Below, piece by piece: positions 4,770-61,951 of a stretch of 64,000 bases of DNA. The first letter of the stretch is position 1. Every line of letters starts with the position of its first letter. The stretch is from Amycolatopsis lexingtonensis. Its GTDB lineage: Bacteria > Actinomycetota > Actinomycetes > Mycobacteriales > Pseudonocardiaceae. Location of the stretch: assembly GCF_014873755.1 (NCBI RefSeq), contig NZ_JADBEG010000001.1, positions 8,282,501 through 8,346,500 of the forward strand. The letters are read 5' to 3'. Position numbers and translations under genes: made by a program. Under the pieces are notes generated by a model. The model did no database searches. It was given only the letters and a program-made list of their open reading frames with translations, and was not told the DNA's origin.

Positions 4770-5390
4770 TCAGCCGAGCAGGTTCCGCGCCATCGCGGTC
4801 GTCACCGCGGCCGTGCGGTCCGAGACGCCGAGCTTGCCGAAGACGCGCAGCAGGTGCGTTTTCACCGTCGCCTCGCTGATGTGCAGGGCGCGGCCGATGT
4901 CCGCGTTCGTCCCGCCCTTCGCGACCAGCCGCAGGACCTCCACCTCGCGCGCCGAAAGCGTTTGCGGCTCGGGGTGGCGGACGCGGTTGACCAGCTTGCC
5001 CGCCACCGACGGCGCCAGCACCGTCTCGCCGCGGGCCGCCGCGCGGATCGCGTTCGCCAGTTCCGTGCGGGACGCGTCCTTCAGCAGGTAGCCGGACGCG
5101 CCGGCCTCGACCGCGCGCAGGATGTCGGCGTCCGTTTCGTACGTCGTGAGCACGACGACCCGCCGGGCCGGCCGGTCGCGCAGGATCCGCTTGGTGGCGC
5201 CGACGCCGTCGAGGCCGGGCATCCGCAGGTCCATCAGCACGACGTCGGGCTCGGCGACCCGGTCGAGCGCGACGGCTTCGTCGCCGGAGCCCGCTTCGCC
5301 GACCACCGTCAGGTCGGGTTCGGCTTCGAGCATGCCGCGGAGGCCTTCGCGGACGACCGGGTGGTCGTCGACCAGCAGGACGCGGATCAA
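4770..5390 (-). CDS. NarL/FixJ-type response regulator (LuxR HTH)
   Basis: 206 residues. It has a receiver domain starting IRVLLVDDHP, with phospho-acceptor Asp54 in VLMDLRMPG and the conserved Lys in YLLKDAS. A C-terminal LuxR/GerE helix-turn-helix (LSAREVEVLRLVAKG...ISEATVKTHL) follows at about residues 140-200. The start is chosen as TTG at 5390 because it overlaps the TGA of the upstream kinase gene by the usual 4 bp (TTGA) and places the receiver at residue 2. No ATG or GTG fits better. It is the last gene of the exporter/two-component operon and is predicted to control that operon. Confidence 0.9.
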   Translation of the reverse strand: MIRVLLVDDHPVVREGLRGMLEAEPDLTVVGEAGSGDEAVALDRVAEPDVVLMDLRMPGLDGVGATKRILRDRPARRVVVLTTYETDADILRAVEAGASGYLLKDASRTELANAIRAAARGETVLAPSVAGKLVNRVRHPEPQTLSAREVEVLRLVAKGGTNADIGRALHISEATVKTHLLRVFGKLGVSDRTAAVTTAMARNLLG

Positions 5391-6544
5391 GCGGGCACCT
5401 CCAGGGTGAGTTCGGTGCCGCTGGGGCCACTCCGGACGGTCAGTCTGCCACCGACCTGTTCCGCGCGGGACCGCATGCCCCGCAGCCCGTAGCCGTCGGC
5501 GTGGTCGGGGTCGAAGCCGGCGCCGTCGTCGCGGACGGACAGCCGGACGGCATCGTCCACAACGGACAGCGTGATCGAGACCGCCGACGCGGCCGCGTGC
5601 CGCCGGACGTTGTTGAGTGCTTCCTGCGCGCCCCGCAGCAGGACGACTTCGCCGGCCATCGGCAGCACGGGCAGCGCACCGTCCACTTCGTACCGCACGG
5701 CGAGGCCCGCCTCGTCCGCCAGCCGGTCGGCCTGCCGCCGGACGGCGTCGACGAGCGAGCCCGAAGTGAGGTCGGCCGGGGCCAGCGCGGCGACCATCGC
5801 GCGGGCCTCGGTGAGGTTGTCGCGCGCGGTCCGGGTGGCCAGCCCGGCGTGCCGCCGCGCCGCGGCCGGGTCGGTGTCCACTTCGGACTCGATGGCCTGT
5901 GCGAGGGTGACGATGCTGGTGAACCCCTGCGCGAGGGTGTCGTGGATCTCCCGTGCGAGGCGTTCGCGCTCGGCCGCGGTGCCCGCCTCCCGGGAGAGGC
6001 GGGCGACTTCGGCCTGGCTCGCTTCCAGCCGCGCGATCAGGTCCGCCCGCGACCGGCTCTCCTCGATGACGTGCAGGATGAACTTGCCGGACAGGATCCC
6101 GAACACGACCAGGATCGCGGTCATCGGCAGCAGGATGTGCAGCGTCGGCCCCCGCAGCCCGTTGTTGACGATCGCCGACGCGGGGCTCAGCAGGATCGCG
6201 ATCGTGGTGAACGCCGCGGCCGGGCGGAACTCGAGCGTCGAGAACAGCAGCGGGCACACCATGAACAGGATGAAGCTGGCCGTGGTGGCGGCGAACATCG
6301 AGACCGCGACGAGCGCCAGCACCACGAGGGCCAGCGTCCACCGCTGCGGGAGGTGGCCGTCGTCGCGGACCACCCCGCGGCCCCAGAGCAGGTAGGTGAG
6401 CGCGAGCGCGGTGAGCGCCCCGACCGCGACGGCGGTGCGCACCGGATCGGCTTCGTCCAGCACCACCAGCACCGTCGTGGCCAGGTACGCCACCGCGAAG
6501 AGGATTTCCCAGAGCCAGTTGAACCGGTCCCAGGCGTCCGTCAC
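5387..6544 (-). CDS. Membrane sensor histidine kinase (HisKA_3, DesK/LiaS type)
   Basis: 385 residues. Four to six predicted transmembrane helices occupy the first 165 residues with almost no extracellular domain, so it probably senses a signal in or at the membrane. A coiled linker leads to the HisKA_3 dimerisation box ERERLAREIHDTLAQG, containing the phospho-acceptor His. The C-terminal ATPase has an N-box-like EALNNVRRHA and the G-box DDGAGFD. The start is GTG at 6544, overlapping the permease stop (GTGA). Partner of the response regulator directly downstream. The arrangement ATPase-permease-kinase-regulator recalls the linearmycin-type and daunorubicin-type exporters. Confidence 0.9.
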   Translation of the reverse strand: MTDAWDRFNWLWEILFAVAYLATTVLVVLDEADPVRTAVAVGALTALALTYLLWGRGVVRDDGHLPQRWTLALVVLALVAVSMFAATTASFILFMVCPLLFSTLEFRPAAAFTTIAILLSPASAIVNNGLRGPTLHILLPMTAILVVFGILSGKFILHVIEESRSRADLIARLEASQAEVARLSREAGTAAERERLAREIHDTLAQGFTSIVTLAQAIESEVDTDPAAARRHAGLATRTARDNLTEARAMVAALAPADLTSGSLVDAVRRQADRLADEAGLAVRYEVDGALPVLPMAGEVVLLRGAQEALNNVRRHAAASAVSITLSVVDDAVRLSVRDDGAGFDPDHADGYGLRGMRSRAEQVGGRLTVRSGPSGTELTLEVPA

Positions 6545-10121: not shown

Positions 10122-10723
10122 GCCGGCCGCGGCGGATGTCGCCGCAGGCGCGCCGCGACGACCTGATCCGCGCCGCGCTGGACCTGTTCGGTTCACGGGC
10201 GCCGGAACTGGTCACCGTGGACGACATCGTCGCGCGCGCCGAGGTGTCGCGGCCGTTGTTCTACCGGTACTTCCCGAGCCTGCGCGAGCTTCAGGTGCAG
10301 GCCCTGCGCACGGTCACCGACGGCCTCATCGACGGCTTGGCCGGGCTCGAGGAAGGCCCGCCGGAAACCCGGCTCCGGGCGGCGGTCCGGGGCCTGATCG
10401 ACGTCGCCGACCACTACCGGGCCGGGTACATCGCGTTGCTGCGCAGCGGTTCGGTGATCGCGACGTCGGAGACGGACGCGGCGATCGACGAGGTCCGCAA
10501 CCGCGCGGTGGCCCTGATCCTGGACGCGCTGGCCGTCACCGATCCCTCGCCTCTGCTCTCCCTCACCCTGCGCTGCTGGACGGCGGTGGTCGAGGGAGCC
10601 CTTCTGTCCTGGCTCCAAGAGCGCACGGTCCCGCGCGAGCACCTGGACACGTGGCTGGTCGACCAGCTCACGGCAATGCTCGCCGCCACCGCCGCCCACG
10701 ACCAAGCCGTCACTTTCACGTGA
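10118..10723 (+). CDS. TetR-family transcriptional regulator
   Basis: 201 residues from GTG at 10118, which overlaps the hydrolase stop by 4 bp (GTGA). An internal ATG at 10136 is the alternative. The N-terminal helix-turn-helix is clear: RRDDLIRAALDLFG, then VTVDDIVARAEVSRPLFYRYF. The C-terminal ligand domain is unremarkable. It is the predicted repressor of the EphD-like gene with which it is co-transcribed. The last codons (VTFT) and the TGA stop fall inside a TTTCACGTGAAA palindrome, so this repeat defines the C-terminus. Confidence 0.88.
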   Translation: MSRPRRMSPQARRDDLIRAALDLFGSRAPELVTVDDIVARAEVSRPLFYRYFPSLRELQVQALRTVTDGLIDGLAGLEEGPPETRLRAAVRGLIDVADHYRAGYIALLRSGSVIATSETDAAIDEVRNRAVALILDALAVTDPSPLLSLTLRCWTAVVEGALLSWLQERTVPREHLDTWLVDQLTAMLAATAAHDQAVTFT

Positions 10724-10767
10724 AAGTGACGTGGAGGGTGCCTCCGGGTCGCTTTCACGTGAAAGTG
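10711..10767. repeat. Pair of TTTCACGTGAAA palindromes (element E, copy 1)
   Basis: CACTTTCACGTGAAAGTG occupies 10711-10728, and a second TTTCACGTGAAA occupies 10753-10764. The centres are 39 bp apart. The first copy contains the stop codon of the TetR gene. The pair sits between convergent genes, ahead of the citrate synthase stop at 10779, so a terminator role is plausible. The same 12-mer occurs as a pair inside the gene at 60401-61951. Confidence 0.75.
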
Positions 10768-10778
10768 GCGCGTCGCGG

Positions 10779-11927
10779 TCAGTGCTTGGTGACCAGTTCC
10801 CAGCCCTCGACGTCCTCGGGGGTGCGGGGCGCCGGGCCGACGTACTTGGCCGACGGGCGCACCAGGCGTCCGGTGCGCTTCTGCTCGAGGATGTGCGCGG
10901 CCCAGCCGGCGGTGCGGGCCGAGCTGAACATCGCGGGCATCATGTGCGGCGGGACCTGGGCGAAGTCCAGGATCACGGCGGCCCAGAACTCGACGTTCGT
11001 CTCGATCGGGTGATCCGGGCGCCGCTCGCGCAGCTCCTTCAGCGCCGCCTGCTCCAGCGCGGCGGCCGCCTCGTAGCGGGTCGCGCCGAGCTCCTGGCAG
11101 GTGCGGCGCAGCACGCGCGCCCGCGGGTCCTCGGCGCGGTAGACGCGGTGGCCGAAGCCCATCAGGCGTTCCTTGCGGTCGAGGATGCCCTTGACCAGGC
11201 CCGCCGGGTCGCCGGTGCGCTCGACCTCTTCGATCATCGGCAGCACGCGGGCCGGGGCGCCGCCGTGCAGCGGGCCCGACATCGCGCCGATGGCGCCCGA
11301 CATGGCCGCCGCGACGTCCGCGCCGGTGGAGGCGATGACGCGGGCGGTGAAGGTCGAGGCGTTGAGGCCGTGCTCGGCCGCCGACACCCAGTAGGCGTCC
11401 AGCGCCTTGACGTGCGCCGGGTCGGGCTCGCCGCGCCAGCGGATCAGGAACCGCTCGGTGATCGAGTGGGCCTCGTCGACGCGGGTCTGCGGGACGGCAG
11501 GCTGGCCGATGCCGCGCGCCGACTGCGCGACGTAGGAGAGGGCCATCACCGAGGCGCGGGCCAGCTGCTCGCGGGCCTCTTCGTCGGTGATGTCGAGCAG
11601 CGGGCGGTAGCCCCAGATCGGCGCGAGCATGGCGAGCGCGGCCTGGACGTCCACCCGGACGTCGCCGGTGTGCACCGGCAGCGGGAAGGGCTCGGCGGGC
11701 GGCAGGCCGTGCCCGAACCGGCCGTCCACGAGGAGGCCCCAGACGTCACCGAAGGTCACCTTGCCGGCGAGGTCCTCGATGTCGACGCCGCGGTAGCGCA
11801 GCGCACCGCCGTCCCGGTCGGGTTCGGCGATTTCGGTGTGGAAGGCGACGACGCCTTCCAGACCCGGTCGGAAGCCGTCGTCGGGTTGGCCGGACGGCTG
11901 TGGCTTGCTGATCGTGGAGGTAGTCAC
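10779..11927 (-). CDS. Citrate synthase, CitA-type paralogue
   Basis: 382 residues. It condenses oxaloacetate (or a 2-oxoacid relative) with acetyl-CoA or propionyl-CoA. The family motifs are present: AEHGLNASTFTARV with the substrate His, GPLHGG, and GFGHRVYRAEDPRA carrying the second catalytic His and an Arg ligand. Length and the N-terminal VVAFHTEIAEPD...LRYRGVDIEDLA match the second citrate synthase (CitA) of actinobacteria rather than the long GltA encoded at 34396. The start is GTG at 11927, preceded by a GAAAGG stretch. A longer frame reaching 12086 reads through low-complexity basic sequence and is unlikely. 2-Methylcitrate synthase activity cannot be excluded. Confidence 0.85.
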   Translation of the reverse strand: MTTSTISKPQPSGQPDDGFRPGLEGVVAFHTEIAEPDRDGGALRYRGVDIEDLAGKVTFGDVWGLLVDGRFGHGLPPAEPFPLPVHTGDVRVDVQAALAMLAPIWGYRPLLDITDEEAREQLARASVMALSYVAQSARGIGQPAVPQTRVDEAHSITERFLIRWRGEPDPAHVKALDAYWVSAAEHGLNASTFTARVIASTGADVAAAMSGAIGAMSGPLHGGAPARVLPMIEEVERTGDPAGLVKGILDRKERLMGFGHRVYRAEDPRARVLRRTCQELGATRYEAAAALEQAALKELRERRPDHPIETNVEFWAAVILDFAQVPPHMMPAMFSSARTAGWAAHILEQKRTGRLVRPSAKYVGPAPRTPEDVEGWELVTKH

Positions 11928-12081
11928 TGTTTCGCGGAACCTTTCGGTGCGCTTTTTTCCCCGTCTTGGTGGTGGTGCACGCGCGGACGGAAATGCGCAC
12001 GGAACGCGCGCGCCATCGCACGGATGGATAGACCTTGCTCCCTCGATCGCCAGGGGGCAATCGAAAGAAGCGGTGGTTTCG

Positions 12082-12175
12082 GTCACGATTACGAGAACGA
12101 TTCAGTCACCGAGGCCGTCCGACGGGAGAATTTTCACCACTCAGTGTGACGAAGCCCAGGTTAAAGGTATGTTTC
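12082..12175. promoter_or_regulatory. Candidate GlnR-type nitrogen boxes in the citA-ureA divergent region
   Basis: The 289-bp region 11928-12216 between the divergent citrate synthase and urease genes contains no gene. Two arrangements fit the actinobacterial AC-n9-AC (GTnAC-n6-GaAAC-like) GlnR pattern. One is GAGAAC (12093-12098) followed by GTCAC (12105-12109), with an extra GTCAC at 12082-12086. The other, on the reverse strand, is GAAAC-n6-TTAAC at 12160-12175, ending 41 bp before the ureA start. The match is by eye only; urease is a known GlnR target in this phylum. Confidence 0.4.
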
Positions 12176-12835: not shown

Positions 12836-14551
12836 ATGCCGCAGATCGACCGCGAGCGCTACGCCGAGCTGTTCGGCCCGACCACCGGCGACCGGATCCG
12901 GCTCGCCGACACCGACCTGCTGATCGAGGTCACCGAAGACCGTTCGATGGGGCCCGGCGGCTCCGGCGACGAGGTGCTCTTCGGCGGCGGCAAGGTCATC
13001 CGCGAGTCGATGGGCCAGGGCACGGCGACCCGCGCCGAGGGCACCCCCGACCTGGTCATCACCGGCGCGGTGATCCTCGACCACTGGGGTGTCGTCAAGG
13101 CCGACGTCGGGGTGCGCGACGGCCGGATCGTCGGCATCGGCAAAGCGGGCAACCCGGACACGATGGACGGCGTCGACCCGGCCCTGGTCATCGGACCGTC
13201 GACGGAGGTGCTGTCCGGCAACGGCAAGATCCTCACCGCGGGCGGCATCGACTGCCACGTCCACTTCATCTGCCCGCAGCTCGTCGACACGGCGCTGGCG
13301 GCCGGGCTGACCACCCTGGTCGGCGGCGGCACCGGTCCCAACGAGGGCACGAAGGCCACCACCGTCACGCCCGGCGCGTGGAACCTCGGCCGGATGCTGT
13401 CCGCCATGGACGGTTACCCGGTCAACGTCCTGTTGCTGGGCAAGGGGAACACCGTCCGGCACGACGCCCTGCGCGAGCAGCTCGCGGCCGGCGCGGGTGG
13501 CTTCAAGCTGCACGAGGACTGGGGCACCACGCCCGCCGCCATCGACGCCTGCCTGACCGTGGCCGACGAAGCCGGCGTGCAGGTCGCGATCCACACCGAC
13601 ACGCTGAACGAGGCCGGGTTCCTGGAGTCCACTGTGGACGCCATCGGCGGCCGCTCGATCAACGCGTACCACACCGAAGGCGCCGGCGGCGGGCACGCGC
13701 CGGACATCATCCAGGTCGTCTCGCTGCCGAACGTGCTGCCGTCGTCGACCAACCCGACCCGGCCGCACACGGCCAACACCCTCGACGAGCACCTCGACAT
13801 GCTGGTCGTCTGCCACCACCTCAACCCCTCGGTGCCCGAGGACCTCGCCTTCGCCGAAAGCCGCATCCGGCCGACCACGATCGCCGCCGAAGACGTGCTG
13901 CACGACATGGGCGCGATTTCGATGATGAGCTCGGATTCGCAGGCGATGGGCCGGATCGGCGAGGTGATCATCCGGACCTGGCAGACCGCGCACGTGATGA
14001 AACGCCGTCGCGGCGCGCTGCCCGGCGACGGCGCGGCCGACAACCTGCGCGCGCGGCGTTACGTCGCCAAGTACACGATCAACCCGGCCATCGCGCACGG
14101 CATGGAGACCGAGATCGGCTCGGTCGAGGTCGGCAAGCTCGCCGACCTCGTGCTGTGGGAGCCGAAGTTCTTCGGCGTCCGCCCGCACGTGGTGCTGAAG
14201 GGCGGCTTCCCGGCGTGGGCGGCGATGGGCGACGCGAACGCGTCCATCCCGACGCCGCAGCCGGTCATGGCCCGCCCGATGTTCGGGGCGAACATCGGGG
14301 CGGCGCTGAGCCTGCACTTCGTCGCGCCGTCCGCTTTGGACAGCGGGCTGCGCGAGACGTTCGGCATCACGCGGCCGCTGGTCGCCGTGTCGAACATGCG
14401 CGCGCGGACCAAGGCGGACATGGTGCTCAACGACGCCACGCCGGACGTCCGCGTCGAGCCGGACAGCTTCGCCGTGCACGTCGACGGCGAGCTGATCGAA
14501 CCGCAGCCGGTGACGGAACTGCCGATGGCGCAAAGGTACTTCCTGTTCTGA
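12836..14551 (+). CDS. ureC: Urease alpha (catalytic) subunit
   Basis: 571 residues. It hydrolyses urea to ammonia and carbamate at a di-nickel centre. All expected ligands are visible: HVH at 141-143, the carbamylated Lys224 in [10 protein letters not shown], and the flap VCHHL with Cys326 and His327. Asp367 is in [10 protein letters not shown]. The length is that of standard UreC. The start overlaps nothing but follows ureB by one base. Its TGA shares a base with the ureF ATG (TGATG). Confidence 0.98.
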
Positions 14552-21580: not shown

Positions 21581-21669
21581 AAGCGCCCCAATGTGGCGTT
21601 CGGTGCGTCCAACGCACCGAACGCCACATTGGGTGCGTTGGACGCAACCAACGCCACATTGGGGCGCTT
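21581..21669. repeat. Compound palindrome (element B) with two alternative hairpins
   Basis: The outer arms 21581-21600 and 21650-21669 are 20-bp perfect reverse complements. The inner arms 21587-21608 and 21612-21633 are 22-bp perfect reverse complements around a 3-nt loop. The two hairpins share the left arm and so exclude each other. The core CCAATGTGGCGTT resembles the AATGTGGCATT core of element A. It lies between pdxH (stop 21576) and the MFS gene, where a terminator is expected. Confidence 0.75.
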
Positions 21670-45440: not shown

Positions 45441-45489
45441 CTTGAATGAGTCATTCAGGACCTCCGAAGACCTGAATGACTCATTCAGG
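45441..45489. repeat. Paired TGAATGAnTCATTCA palindromes (element C)
   Basis: CTTGAATGAGTCATTCAGG (45441-45459) and CCTGAATGACTCATTCAGG (45471-45489) are each near-perfect palindromes and are also reverse complements of one another. They lie between mscR (transcribed leftwards) and the end of the sigma-factor gene (stop 45550), where a terminator for the latter is expected. Confidence 0.65.
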
Positions 45490-60410: not shown

Positions 60411-61951
60411 GCTCCCGCCTTCGCGTCCCACGACCCGGCGCGCGGGTCGGCCACCTTCCGCAGCTCGCCCTTCGCGACCCGCTCCGACGGCGTCATCGGC
60501 AGCGCGTCGGCGAACGCCCAGAACCGCGGAACCTTGAAGTAGGCCAGCTTGCCCGAGCAGAACTCGGCGAGCTCGGCCGGCTCCGGACGTTCGCCGTCGC
60601 ACACGACGTACGCCTTGATCTCCTCGCCGCGCAGCTCGTCGGGCACCGCGACGACGGCGGCCAGCTTGACCGCGGGGTGCAGCAGCAGCGCGCGCTCGAC
60701 CTCGTCCGCGGACACGTTTTCGCCGCTGCGGCGGATCATGTCCTTCGTGCGGCCGACGTAGTGGACGCGGCCGGCGTCGTCCAGCCGCGCGAGGTCGCCG
60801 GTGTGGAACCAGCCGTTCTCGAACGCCTTCGCCGTCGCTTCGGGATCTTCGTGGTAGCCGTGCATCAGCCCGATGCCGCGGATCAGCAGCTGCCCGGTTT
60901 CCCCTCGCGGCAACGGCTTCCCGTCGTCGCCGGCGATCATCACCTCGCGGTCGCGGCTCGGCCGCCCGATGCAGCCGGTGCCGACGGTCTCGTCGTGGTC
61001 GGCCACCGTCATCCGGATGTCGCCGCCGGTCTCGGTCATCCCGAACGCCTCGTACCACGGGACGCCCCAGCGCGCCTCCAGCTCGGCGTGCAGTTCTCGG
61101 GGGATGGCCGACGCGCAGATCGCGCGGACGCGGTGGTCGCGATCGGCCGCCGACGGTTCCTGGCGCAGCAGCAGCGTCGGCATCAGGCCGAGGCAGTAGA
61201 ACCACGTGACGCCGTGCTCGCGGACCTTCGCCCAGAACGTGCTGGGGTGGAACCGGTCCAGCACGACGAGGGTGGCGCCGCCGGCCAGCCCGAGCGCGAC
61301 GTTCCACTGTGGATCGATGTAGTGGAAGGGCTGCGCGGTCAGGAGGACGTCCGTCTCGCCGACGGCCGGGAAGTCGGTGGCCAGGCTGATCGCGAGCGTC
61401 GTCCAGTAGCGGTTCGGCAGGACGCAGCCCTTGGGCGCGCCGGTGGTGCCCGAGGTGTACTGGATGTTGACCGGCAGCTCGGGCACCGGGGTGAAGGCGC
61501 CGCTTTCACGTGAAAGCTCCGCCCGCAGGTGGTCGCTTTCACGTGAAAGCTCCGCTGGGGTGACGACCTCGGTCAGGCCGATCCGGCCGAGCAGGTCGGT
61601 GAACTCCGCGGCCGCGACGACGAGCTTCGCGCCGGAATGGCGGAGGACGTGGGCGCCGTCGAATTCCTGGTAGTTCGTGTTGACCGGCACCAGCTGCGCG
61701 CCGATCTTCGCCAGCGCGAGCCAGGTCAACGGGAACGCGGGCACGTTCCGCAGCATCACCGCGACCCGGTCGCCGGGGCCGATGCCGCGCCCGGCCAGCG
61801 CCGCGGCGATCCGCGAGCTTTCGCGGTCGACCTCGGCGAATGTGAACTCCTGGTCCAGGTGGTCGAAGACCCACGCCGTGCGCGCCGGCCACAGCTCGGC
61901 GGCGCGCCGGACGAGCTGCTCCAGGGTCCCGATCTCGGCGAGCGGGGTCAT
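60401..61951 (-). CDS. AMP-dependent acyl-CoA ligase with palindrome-encoded insertion
   Basis: 516 residues from ATG at 61951, which overlaps the enoyl-CoA hydratase stop (ATGA). It activates an acyl acid as AMP and CoA ester. The ATP loop is QYTSGTTGAPKG from 165, then YEAFGMTETGGDI, GWFHTGDLARLDD and the C-terminal Lys region SERVAKGELRK. Just before the ATP loop, residues 134-150 read ELSRES...ELSRES. Both copies are encoded by TTTCACGTGAAA palindromes, making an 11-residue imperfect repeat unlikely to belong to the ancestral enzyme. The frame stays open, so the protein is probably functional. Substrate unknown. Confidence 0.88.
   Translation of the reverse strand: MTPLAEIGTLEQLVRRAAELWPARTAWVFDHLDQEFTFAEVDRESSRIAAALAGRGIGPGDRVAVMLRNVPAFPLTWLALAKIGAQLVPVNTNYQEFDGAHVLRHSGAKLVVAAAEFTDLLGRIGLTEVVTPAELSRESDHLRAELSRESGAFTPVPELPVNIQYTSGTTGAPKGCVLPNRYWTTLAISLATDFPAVGETDVLLTAQPFHYIDPQWNVALGLAGGATLVVLDRFHPSTFWAKVREHGVTWFYCLGLMPTLLLRQEPSAADRDHRVRAICASAIPRELHAELEARWGVPWYEAFGMTETGGDIRMTVADHDETVGTGCIGRPSRDREVMIAGDDGKPLPRGETGQLLIRGIGLMHGYHEDPEATAKAFENGWFHTGDLARLDDAGRVHYVGRTKDMIRRSGENVSADEVERALLLHPAVKLAAVVAVPDELRGEEIKAYVVCDGERPEPAELAEFCSGKLAYFKVPRFWAFADALPMTPSERVAKGELRKVADPRAGSWDAKAGAWL
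61502..61550. repeat. Pair of TTTCACGTGAAA palindromes inside a coding region (element E, copy 2)
   Basis: GCTTTCACGTGAAAGC occurs at 61502-61517 and again at 61535-61550, centres 33 bp apart, an exact multiple of three. They lie within the acyl-CoA ligase gene, whose frame stays open through them. The 12-mer also occurs as a pair at 10711-10764 between genes. Confidence 0.8.

Follow-up and report, generated by a model that had tools for sequence, protein, structure and literature searches.

Dispersed DNA palindromes restricted to a clade of Amycolatopsis, one doublet of which is translated in frame within an acyl-CoA ligase gene

The two palindromes found inside an acyl-CoA ligase gene of Amycolatopsis lexingtonensis are one doublet of a clade-restricted, dispersed family of DNA palindromes in the genus Amycolatopsis. 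The 14-bp heart of the palindrome, CTTTCACGTGAAAG, is kept exact at the DNA level both within and between genes, while the arms on either side of it, the spacers between paired units and sometimes the head itself turn over, often on both sides. The interpretation preferred here, which is given about an even chance of being correct, is that the palindrome is a DNA signal of this clade, whose heart would be held by a sequence-specific candidate factor and whose surroundings, at permissive sites, would be reshaped through fold-back template switching. The candidate factor would recognize the heart as DNA; as with other signals of genome-wide extent, mutated hearts would be either removed by selection or restored by conversion; template switching by fold-back of the inverted repeats would even out the arms and invert the spacers; and within genes the palindrome would survive at permissive places and in open frames, yielding LSRES or FHVK peptides.

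The DNA analyzed (“the window”, 64,000 nucleotides) spans positions 8282501-8346500 of the 10.74 Mb one-contig A. lexingtonensis genome (G000). Exact copies of the inner 12-mer TTTCACGTGAAA occur in the window at 61504-61515 and 61537-61548, both in the ligase gene; a further pair, with a spacing of 39 bp, is located at 10714-10725 and 10753-10764. When up to two mismatches are allowed there are five matches, four of them exact, compared to a mean of 0.48 in shuffled sequence, and none of 100 shuffles reached five. The features of the two doublets are collected in Table 1. The ligase reading frame matches Pfam AMP-binding (PF00501, E 1.5e-73), and its translation contains VTPAELSRESDHLRAELSRESGAFTPVPELPVNIQYTSGTTGAPKG, with AELSRESDHLRAELSRESG preceding YTSGTTGAPKG. 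The original prediction, that a single element occurs both between genes and in frame within a gene, and that the ligase carries two in-frame copies 33 bp apart which encode ELSRES twice ahead of the YTSGTTG loop (the distance is about 15 residues), agrees with these coordinates and with the genome-wide copies described below. The arms of the ligase hearts are GTCG / CTCC at 61536..61549 and GCCG / CTCC at 61503..61516, so that each unit pairs at only two of four arm positions, which counts against the preferred interpretation. At the other doublet, the plus-strand upstream reading frame stops at 10723, its TGA lying within the palindrome. Neither window doublet has an Rfam match at gathering scores. 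A full-length match to Rfam RF02514 (5_ureB_sRNA; 65.1 bits, cut-off 40) is located on the minus strand at 13000-13292, just downstream of the citrate synthase gene in window coordinates; it may reflect coding sequence and not an RNA.

Table 1. Coordinates of the two palindrome doublets and associated genes (positions in the window).
Feature	Position	Strand	Remarks
Acyl-CoA ligase gene, 516 aa	60401..61951	minus	AMP-binding and AMP-binding_C domains
20-codon segment	61496..61555	minus	residues 133-152, used for carrier comparison
Exact 14-bp heart CTTTCACGTGAAAG	61536..61549		first LSRES of ligase, residues 135-139
Exact 14-bp heart CTTTCACGTGAAAG	61503..61516		second LSRES of ligase, residues 146-150
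Spacer of ligase doublet	61517..61535		variant of recurrent CACCTGGGGGC spacer, here CACCTGCGGGC on minus strand
Exact heart, second window doublet	10713..10726		22-bp perfect palindrome, arms GTCA / TGAC
Second exact heart of same doublet	10752..10765		13 bp before end of convergent citrate synthase gene
Spacer of second doublet	10727..10751		short hairpin, TGGAGG..CCTCCG type
Citrate synthase gene	10779-12086	minus	

Across the whole G000 genome the 12-mer is present in 120 copies (reversed control 0), of which 119 extend to the 14-mer, and one more copy is gained when the 14-mer may contain a single mismatch; 40 doublets have 10-35 bp between their units. A scan of 80 Amycolatopsis genomes detected doublets in 16 (the carriers), which contain 26-194 exact single copies, compared to 1-3 in six other genomes and none in the remaining 58. 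At the level of the family, doublets occur in 16 of 390 genomes, all of them Amycolatopsis, and the paired form is found in none of the 310 family genomes outside the genus. A search of a species-genome collection gave at least 120 doublet stretches, and the 80 listed are all from Amycolatopsis, including A. rifamycinica, A. pretoriensis, A. eburnea, A. iheyensis and A. bullii. Carriage by phages or plasmids was rejected: viral contigs contain no doublet, and the 96-bp stretch of the ligase is unmatched among plasmid and phage records. Similar AT-rich palindromes were also sought in the non-carriers G054 and G014, and none occurs among their 14 commonest 12-mers (400 kb each). Other recurrent hairpin-like words, such as TCGTGAGTGGTAAGGACGGTTAGAACC, were observed in G014 (L306-L325), one of which occupies the place of the G000 doublet L239.

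The state of the heart may be expressed as the ratio of exact to one-mismatch copies in each genome. This ratio is 119:1 in G000, 135:1 in G069, 194:2 in G065, 144:3 in G040, 136:4 in G017, 43:2 in G066, 85:5 in G047, 124:8 in G041, 181:13 in G043, 51:5 in G030, 66:6 in G019 and 26:5 in G061. It is looser in G008 (51:12), G075 (115:24), G050 (67:25) and G038 (39:17), relic-like in G056 (3:11) and G067 (1:9), and near background in G064 (1:3), G023 (1:2) and G054 (0:3), the reversed control itself yielding 0-3 one-mismatch copies in each genome. The condition of the heart therefore ranges from nearly perfect to worn, depending on the genome, and G050, G038, G056 and G067 look as if the upkeep of the palindrome has been lost.

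An ortholog of the ligase is present in all 80 genus genomes, and 29 of 30 ligase loci were aligned: 14 have both copies (both hearts exact in 12, one changed in G019, both changed in G050), G061 has one degenerate copy, and 14, namely 13 clade members and the outgroup G055, lack the segment. The heart codons CTT TCA CGT GAA, present twice, vary among the 14 carriers at none of their eight third positions, even though they are AT-rich, whereas 69 of 116 third positions within 60 codons (59%) vary; in the three hearts that are changed, the differences are at first or second codon positions. Because the third positions of the heart codons are fixed where nearby ones vary, the constraint acts on DNA. 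It had been anticipated that close homologues without the segment would exist, as 13 of the 28 clade ligases do, and that the segment would be an insertion or duplication tolerated in a loop. The site is indeed a permissive one, with raised amino-acid diversity among the 13 non-carriers, whose matching stretch is 9 residues shorter than the carrier segment; the segment, however, replaces sequence with a net gain of 27 nt and is no clean insertion. The structural model proposed as a check on the loop was poor (mean pLDDT 54.7, residues 137-178 below 50) and was set aside. The ligase gene tree, whose bootstrap support is not fully settled, needs 8 state changes (at least 4 forced), and the element is present at this locus in the deep pair G066/G061. 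The plain reading is that the ligase doublet is old and has been lost several times; transfer may also account for the pattern. Most probably the palindromes serve the enzyme nothing.

The anatomy of the element was characterized in 175 non-redundant groups from several species, a set which includes orthologs; two units are present in 145 of the groups, from loci that were chosen in part for their doublets. About a quarter of the groups (47) lie in open coding frames as judged by a GC3 criterion, and the units within genes are read 75 times as LSRES and 22 times as FHVK, but never in the TGA frame. The 33-bp spacing had been regarded as a frame-preserving property of the gene, but it is also the commonest spacing outside genes (59 of 115 intervals). 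What remains of a link to the frame is a weaker effect: spacings are divisible by 3 in 45 of 50 intragenic intervals and in 76 of 115 others (nominal p 0.001, the orthologs not being independent). Several polyketide-synthase-like proteins (L023, L027, L031, L033, L235, L079, L081 and L082) have LSRES segments just before WDPDGTV or WNPDGTV, apparently in the same ketoreductase-domain linker, the domain having been named by eye.

The arms are self-complementary at positions 1-4, both in genes (0.91, 0.85, 0.70 and 0.89; shuffled 0.53, 0.66, 0.55 and 0.66) and outside them (0.88, 0.84, 0.62 and 0.84; shuffled 0.50, 0.52, 0.45 and 0.65), with no complementarity at position 5 and little beyond. 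Since this complementarity exceeds that of shuffles equally inside and outside genes, it was counted in favour of a DNA-level interpretation. TG, CT and CG account for nearly all of the base pairs of letters adjacent to the heart on each side: 357 units include 177 of type TG/TG, 88 CT/CT, 34 CG/CT, 23 CG/TG and 13 CG/CG, and 17 of type CT/TG, for which a hand calculation from the totals gives an expected count of about 128. Species differ in their preference, TG being found in 69 of 74 A. rifamycinica arms and CT in 56 of 86 arms of strain A133. Many single copies are perfect palindromes of 34-42 bp, which exceed the 22-bp unit and count against the preferred interpretation. A hairpin formed between the two palindromes of a doublet was rejected as the structure under selection, because their arm agreement at positions 1-4 is no better than that of an unpaired control and is exceeded by the agreement within each palindrome. 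The outer bases of the doublet do show higher agreement at position 5 (0.91 and 0.84), possibly as a consequence of outer versus inner composition.

Another explanation places selection on transcript hairpins or terminators. A crude gene caller places the 46 groups of G000 between convergent genes (15), between tandem genes (18), between divergent genes (2, both of which fall under coding by the GC3 criterion) and inside genes (9), with 2 unclear; a cruder count assigns 31 to intergenic sequence, 21 to coding sequence and 3 to sites where a gene has its end within the element. The scarcity of divergent sites and the location of many groups 6-30 bp past a stop codon, both as called by this crude method, are what terminators would produce, and the long single copies resemble terminator stems. 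The explanation is nevertheless very improbable, as arm complementarity is the same inside genes, the core is sequence-specific, and the arm mismatches within genes (6 G.U, 7 A.C) have no RNA wobble signature; the corresponding noncoding counts of 45 and 27 are unreadable because strand is arbitrary there.

Comparison of orthologous places reveals how the element changes. In most of 35 comparisons (some loci entering twice) the partner keeps the element in place with other arms, spacers or unit number, and a few partners hold other hairpins. Twelve sites were compared between G000 and G069: unit number is equal at 7, two units are matched by one at another, and G069 has no unit at the remaining four. 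At the 7 equal sites, where the flanks are 94% identical, 18 of 52 arm position pairs are identical and 14 are changed on one side; of those changed on both sides, 17 retain pairing and 3 are unpaired. The corresponding numbers at 20 sites shared with named species are 82 the same, 31 both-sided with pairing, 2 both-sided and unpaired, and 45 one-sided. Among 38 locus clusters, any of which may be counted under two headings, 6 have an inverted spacer and 24 a spacer of unchanged orientation, while 7 are ambiguous and 9 differ in spacer length. The head may also be replaced: a second head, CTTTCCCTANGAAAG, is present in 18 of the 80 genomes and 12 of the 16 carriers, with 16 copies in G000, and G029 has 19 copies of it without CTTTCACGTGAAAG. 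At 7472118 G000 has CTTTCACGTGAAAG where the G069 head is CTTTCATAGGGAAAG, the partner hairpin being unchanged; at 8514112 a one-head doublet of G000 stands where G069 has the other head; and at 7226602 the second-head loop is oppositely oriented in the two genomes. Arm homogenisation and spacer inversion are given as marks of template switching between inverted repeats in an excerpt of PMC8604942, and the two-sided arm changes, spacer inversions and in-place head exchanges were counted in favour of the preferred interpretation.

Several further observations concern the heads and other repeats. All 16 G000 copies of CTTTCCCTANGAAAG lie in C1:5393626-9111451, the half of the chromosome around parB (7.33 Mb), unlike the ACGT head. 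An inverted doublet of another family, TTGAATGAGTCATTCAGG..CCTGAATGACTCATTCAGG, occurs at 45445-45485 of the window and at several other G000 places, and in G069 this family occupies the site of a G000 ACGT doublet. A third-family array based on AACGCCACATTGG / CCAATGTGGCGTT, in steps of near 30 bp, occurs at 21588-21662 of the window and also at L221, L222 and L234. A. rifamycinica has a ATCACNCGTGAT palindrome array (L073, about 5275-5420) where G000 has a 42-bp CTTTCACGTGAAAG palindrome (L236). Repeats like GTCCACATCGGAC were dropped as ordinary coding sequence by eye.

The main rival to the DNA-signal interpretation is a REP-like or MITE-like mobile palindrome, whose doublets would be copied by a putative mobiliser and whose exactness would reflect the youth of the copies. 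The doublets are organized like those that an excerpt of PMC3116915 describes for REPINs, and the G069 absences, together with the single unit found there in place of two at a fifth site, count against the preferred interpretation. At 14 sites in the non-carrier G054 and 2 in G014 no partner has the 14-mer, and at two intergenic loci (L011 and L215) G000 and G054 look to differ by the presence or absence of a 63-71 nt block; such blocks and the G069 absences suit mobility. A 53-nt presence/absence of the related CCTAN head is seen at L405, and a 17-bp direct repeat flanks both ends of the G000 doublet at L209. This repeat is confined to L209, and the ligase has no clean insertion with a target-site duplication such as a MITE might leave; at the coding site L274, LPAES is changed to LSRES relative to a non-carrier without any change of length (hand translation). 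The remaining non-carrier sites differ irregularly; one G054 protein, compared by hand, reads LSREI and LSGEI, encoded by different codons, at the position of the two LSRES copies of G000, as would a decayed copy. Against a mobile element, species with a flank divergence of 6-9% share an identical 14-mer at many orthologous sites, and both hearts are exact in 12 of the 14 two-copy ligases. Y1 transposase (PF01797, RAYT/TnpA-REP) is found in none of the 80 genus genomes (positive in 5 of 14 controls), on which ground membership of the REP/RAYT class was rejected, and none of 27 scanned neighbour and host proteins is mobiliser-like: six lack any Pfam match, and the others are of such kinds as enzymes, transporters, sensors, regulators and ScpA. 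Because of the four missing G069 sites and the block-like loci, mobility is retained as a substantial possibility, though one that falls short of an even chance, and the DNA-signal interpretation is put no higher than even.

Two other explanations have little probability. One is that the palindrome is a functionless by-product of DNA methylation or mismatch repair that ratchets sequence towards a palindrome, as in the model proposed for HIP (PMC4390886). Palindromic sequence, patchy distribution in the clade and gain and loss would all fit, but a methyltransferase site bears little resemblance to a 14-bp heart with variable arms arranged in doublets, and an exchange of heads requires simultaneous change of several bases; this explanation is improbable. 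The other is that the copies are extra parS sites bound by ParB or a Noc-like paralogue. The inner 12 bp of parS are identical to the 12-mer of the palindrome, and the literature matches listed for this 12-mer concern mostly ParB, parS or origins, as judged by title. The outer bases of parS are G..C, however, and it is located at the origin, while the palindrome has C..G in 119 of 120 copies and is dispersed, with copies also opposite the inferred origin. Beside parB, a stretch of 0.9 kb contains four parS-like sites that have G..C flanks and 0-1 mismatch; each of the 80 genomes has one strong ParB, extra weak matches occurring only in the non-carriers G006, G044, G046 and G048; and no column of the ParB alignment separates 8 of the 16 carriers from 7 non-carriers of the same clade. 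With parS-like sites in place at parB, and neither a carrier-specific paralogue nor a separating column, this explanation was rejected and retains almost no probability.

A broader proposal, advanced tentatively and judged somewhat less likely than not, is that one Amycolatopsis clade possesses a previously undescribed system of genome-wide DNA recognition, in which a factor would keep about 100-200 copies near letter-perfect, translated copies included, the dialect would change in place from a CCTAN to an ACGT head, and loss of the factor would leave relics. It counts against a dedicated factor that among the 80 genomes neither ParB, nor Y1 transposase, nor ComEC singles out the carriers; ComEC, considered as a discriminating gene, is present in all 80 and therefore does not distinguish them. 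Letter-perfect motifs on a genome-wide scale are rare and usually mark a DNA-handling machine. Here 14 bp are held in translated sequence against synonymous drift, and a DNA signal is seen to rewrite protein loops; sister genomes that look active, decaying or empty amount to a natural experiment, in which the presence and absence of genes could point to the machine.

Among known systems, REPs and REPINs share with the palindrome short palindromic units, mostly in doublets and many of them intergenic, but the palindrome has no Y1 transposase, about a quarter of its groups are in genes, and its heart is nearly free of mismatches. Palindromes inside coding sequence are known elsewhere (PMC6649704, excerpt). 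The RPE parallel drawn in the original prediction is a loose one: both are palindromic repeats translated in frame, but RPEs are insertions of about 150 bp (PMC10969869, excerpt), mostly inside ORFs, while the palindrome has units of 14-22 bp mostly outside genes. HIP1 of cyanobacteria is likewise an iterated palindrome in and between genes with lineage-wise gain and loss (PMC4390886), although it is an 8-mer found about once per kb and tied to methyltransferases, and the present element is a sparse 14-mer in doublets. The DNA uptake sequences DUS and USS, according to excerpts of PMC2397512 and PMC3630211, are short motifs conserved far above their flanks, located in permissive parts of genes and in intergenic regions, often as close inverted pairs at terminators, and divided into species dialects. 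The palindrome, too, is more conserved than its flanks, as seen in the ligase third positions and the G000/G069 arms; it differs in being palindromic and in having about 11 copies per Mb as opposed to thousands per genome. Its pattern resembles that of DUS and USS without membership being claimed. No description of the palindrome was found among the matches listed from open-licence literature, and there is a fair chance that this variant of dispersed palindromic repeats marks a previously undescribed DNA-handling system.
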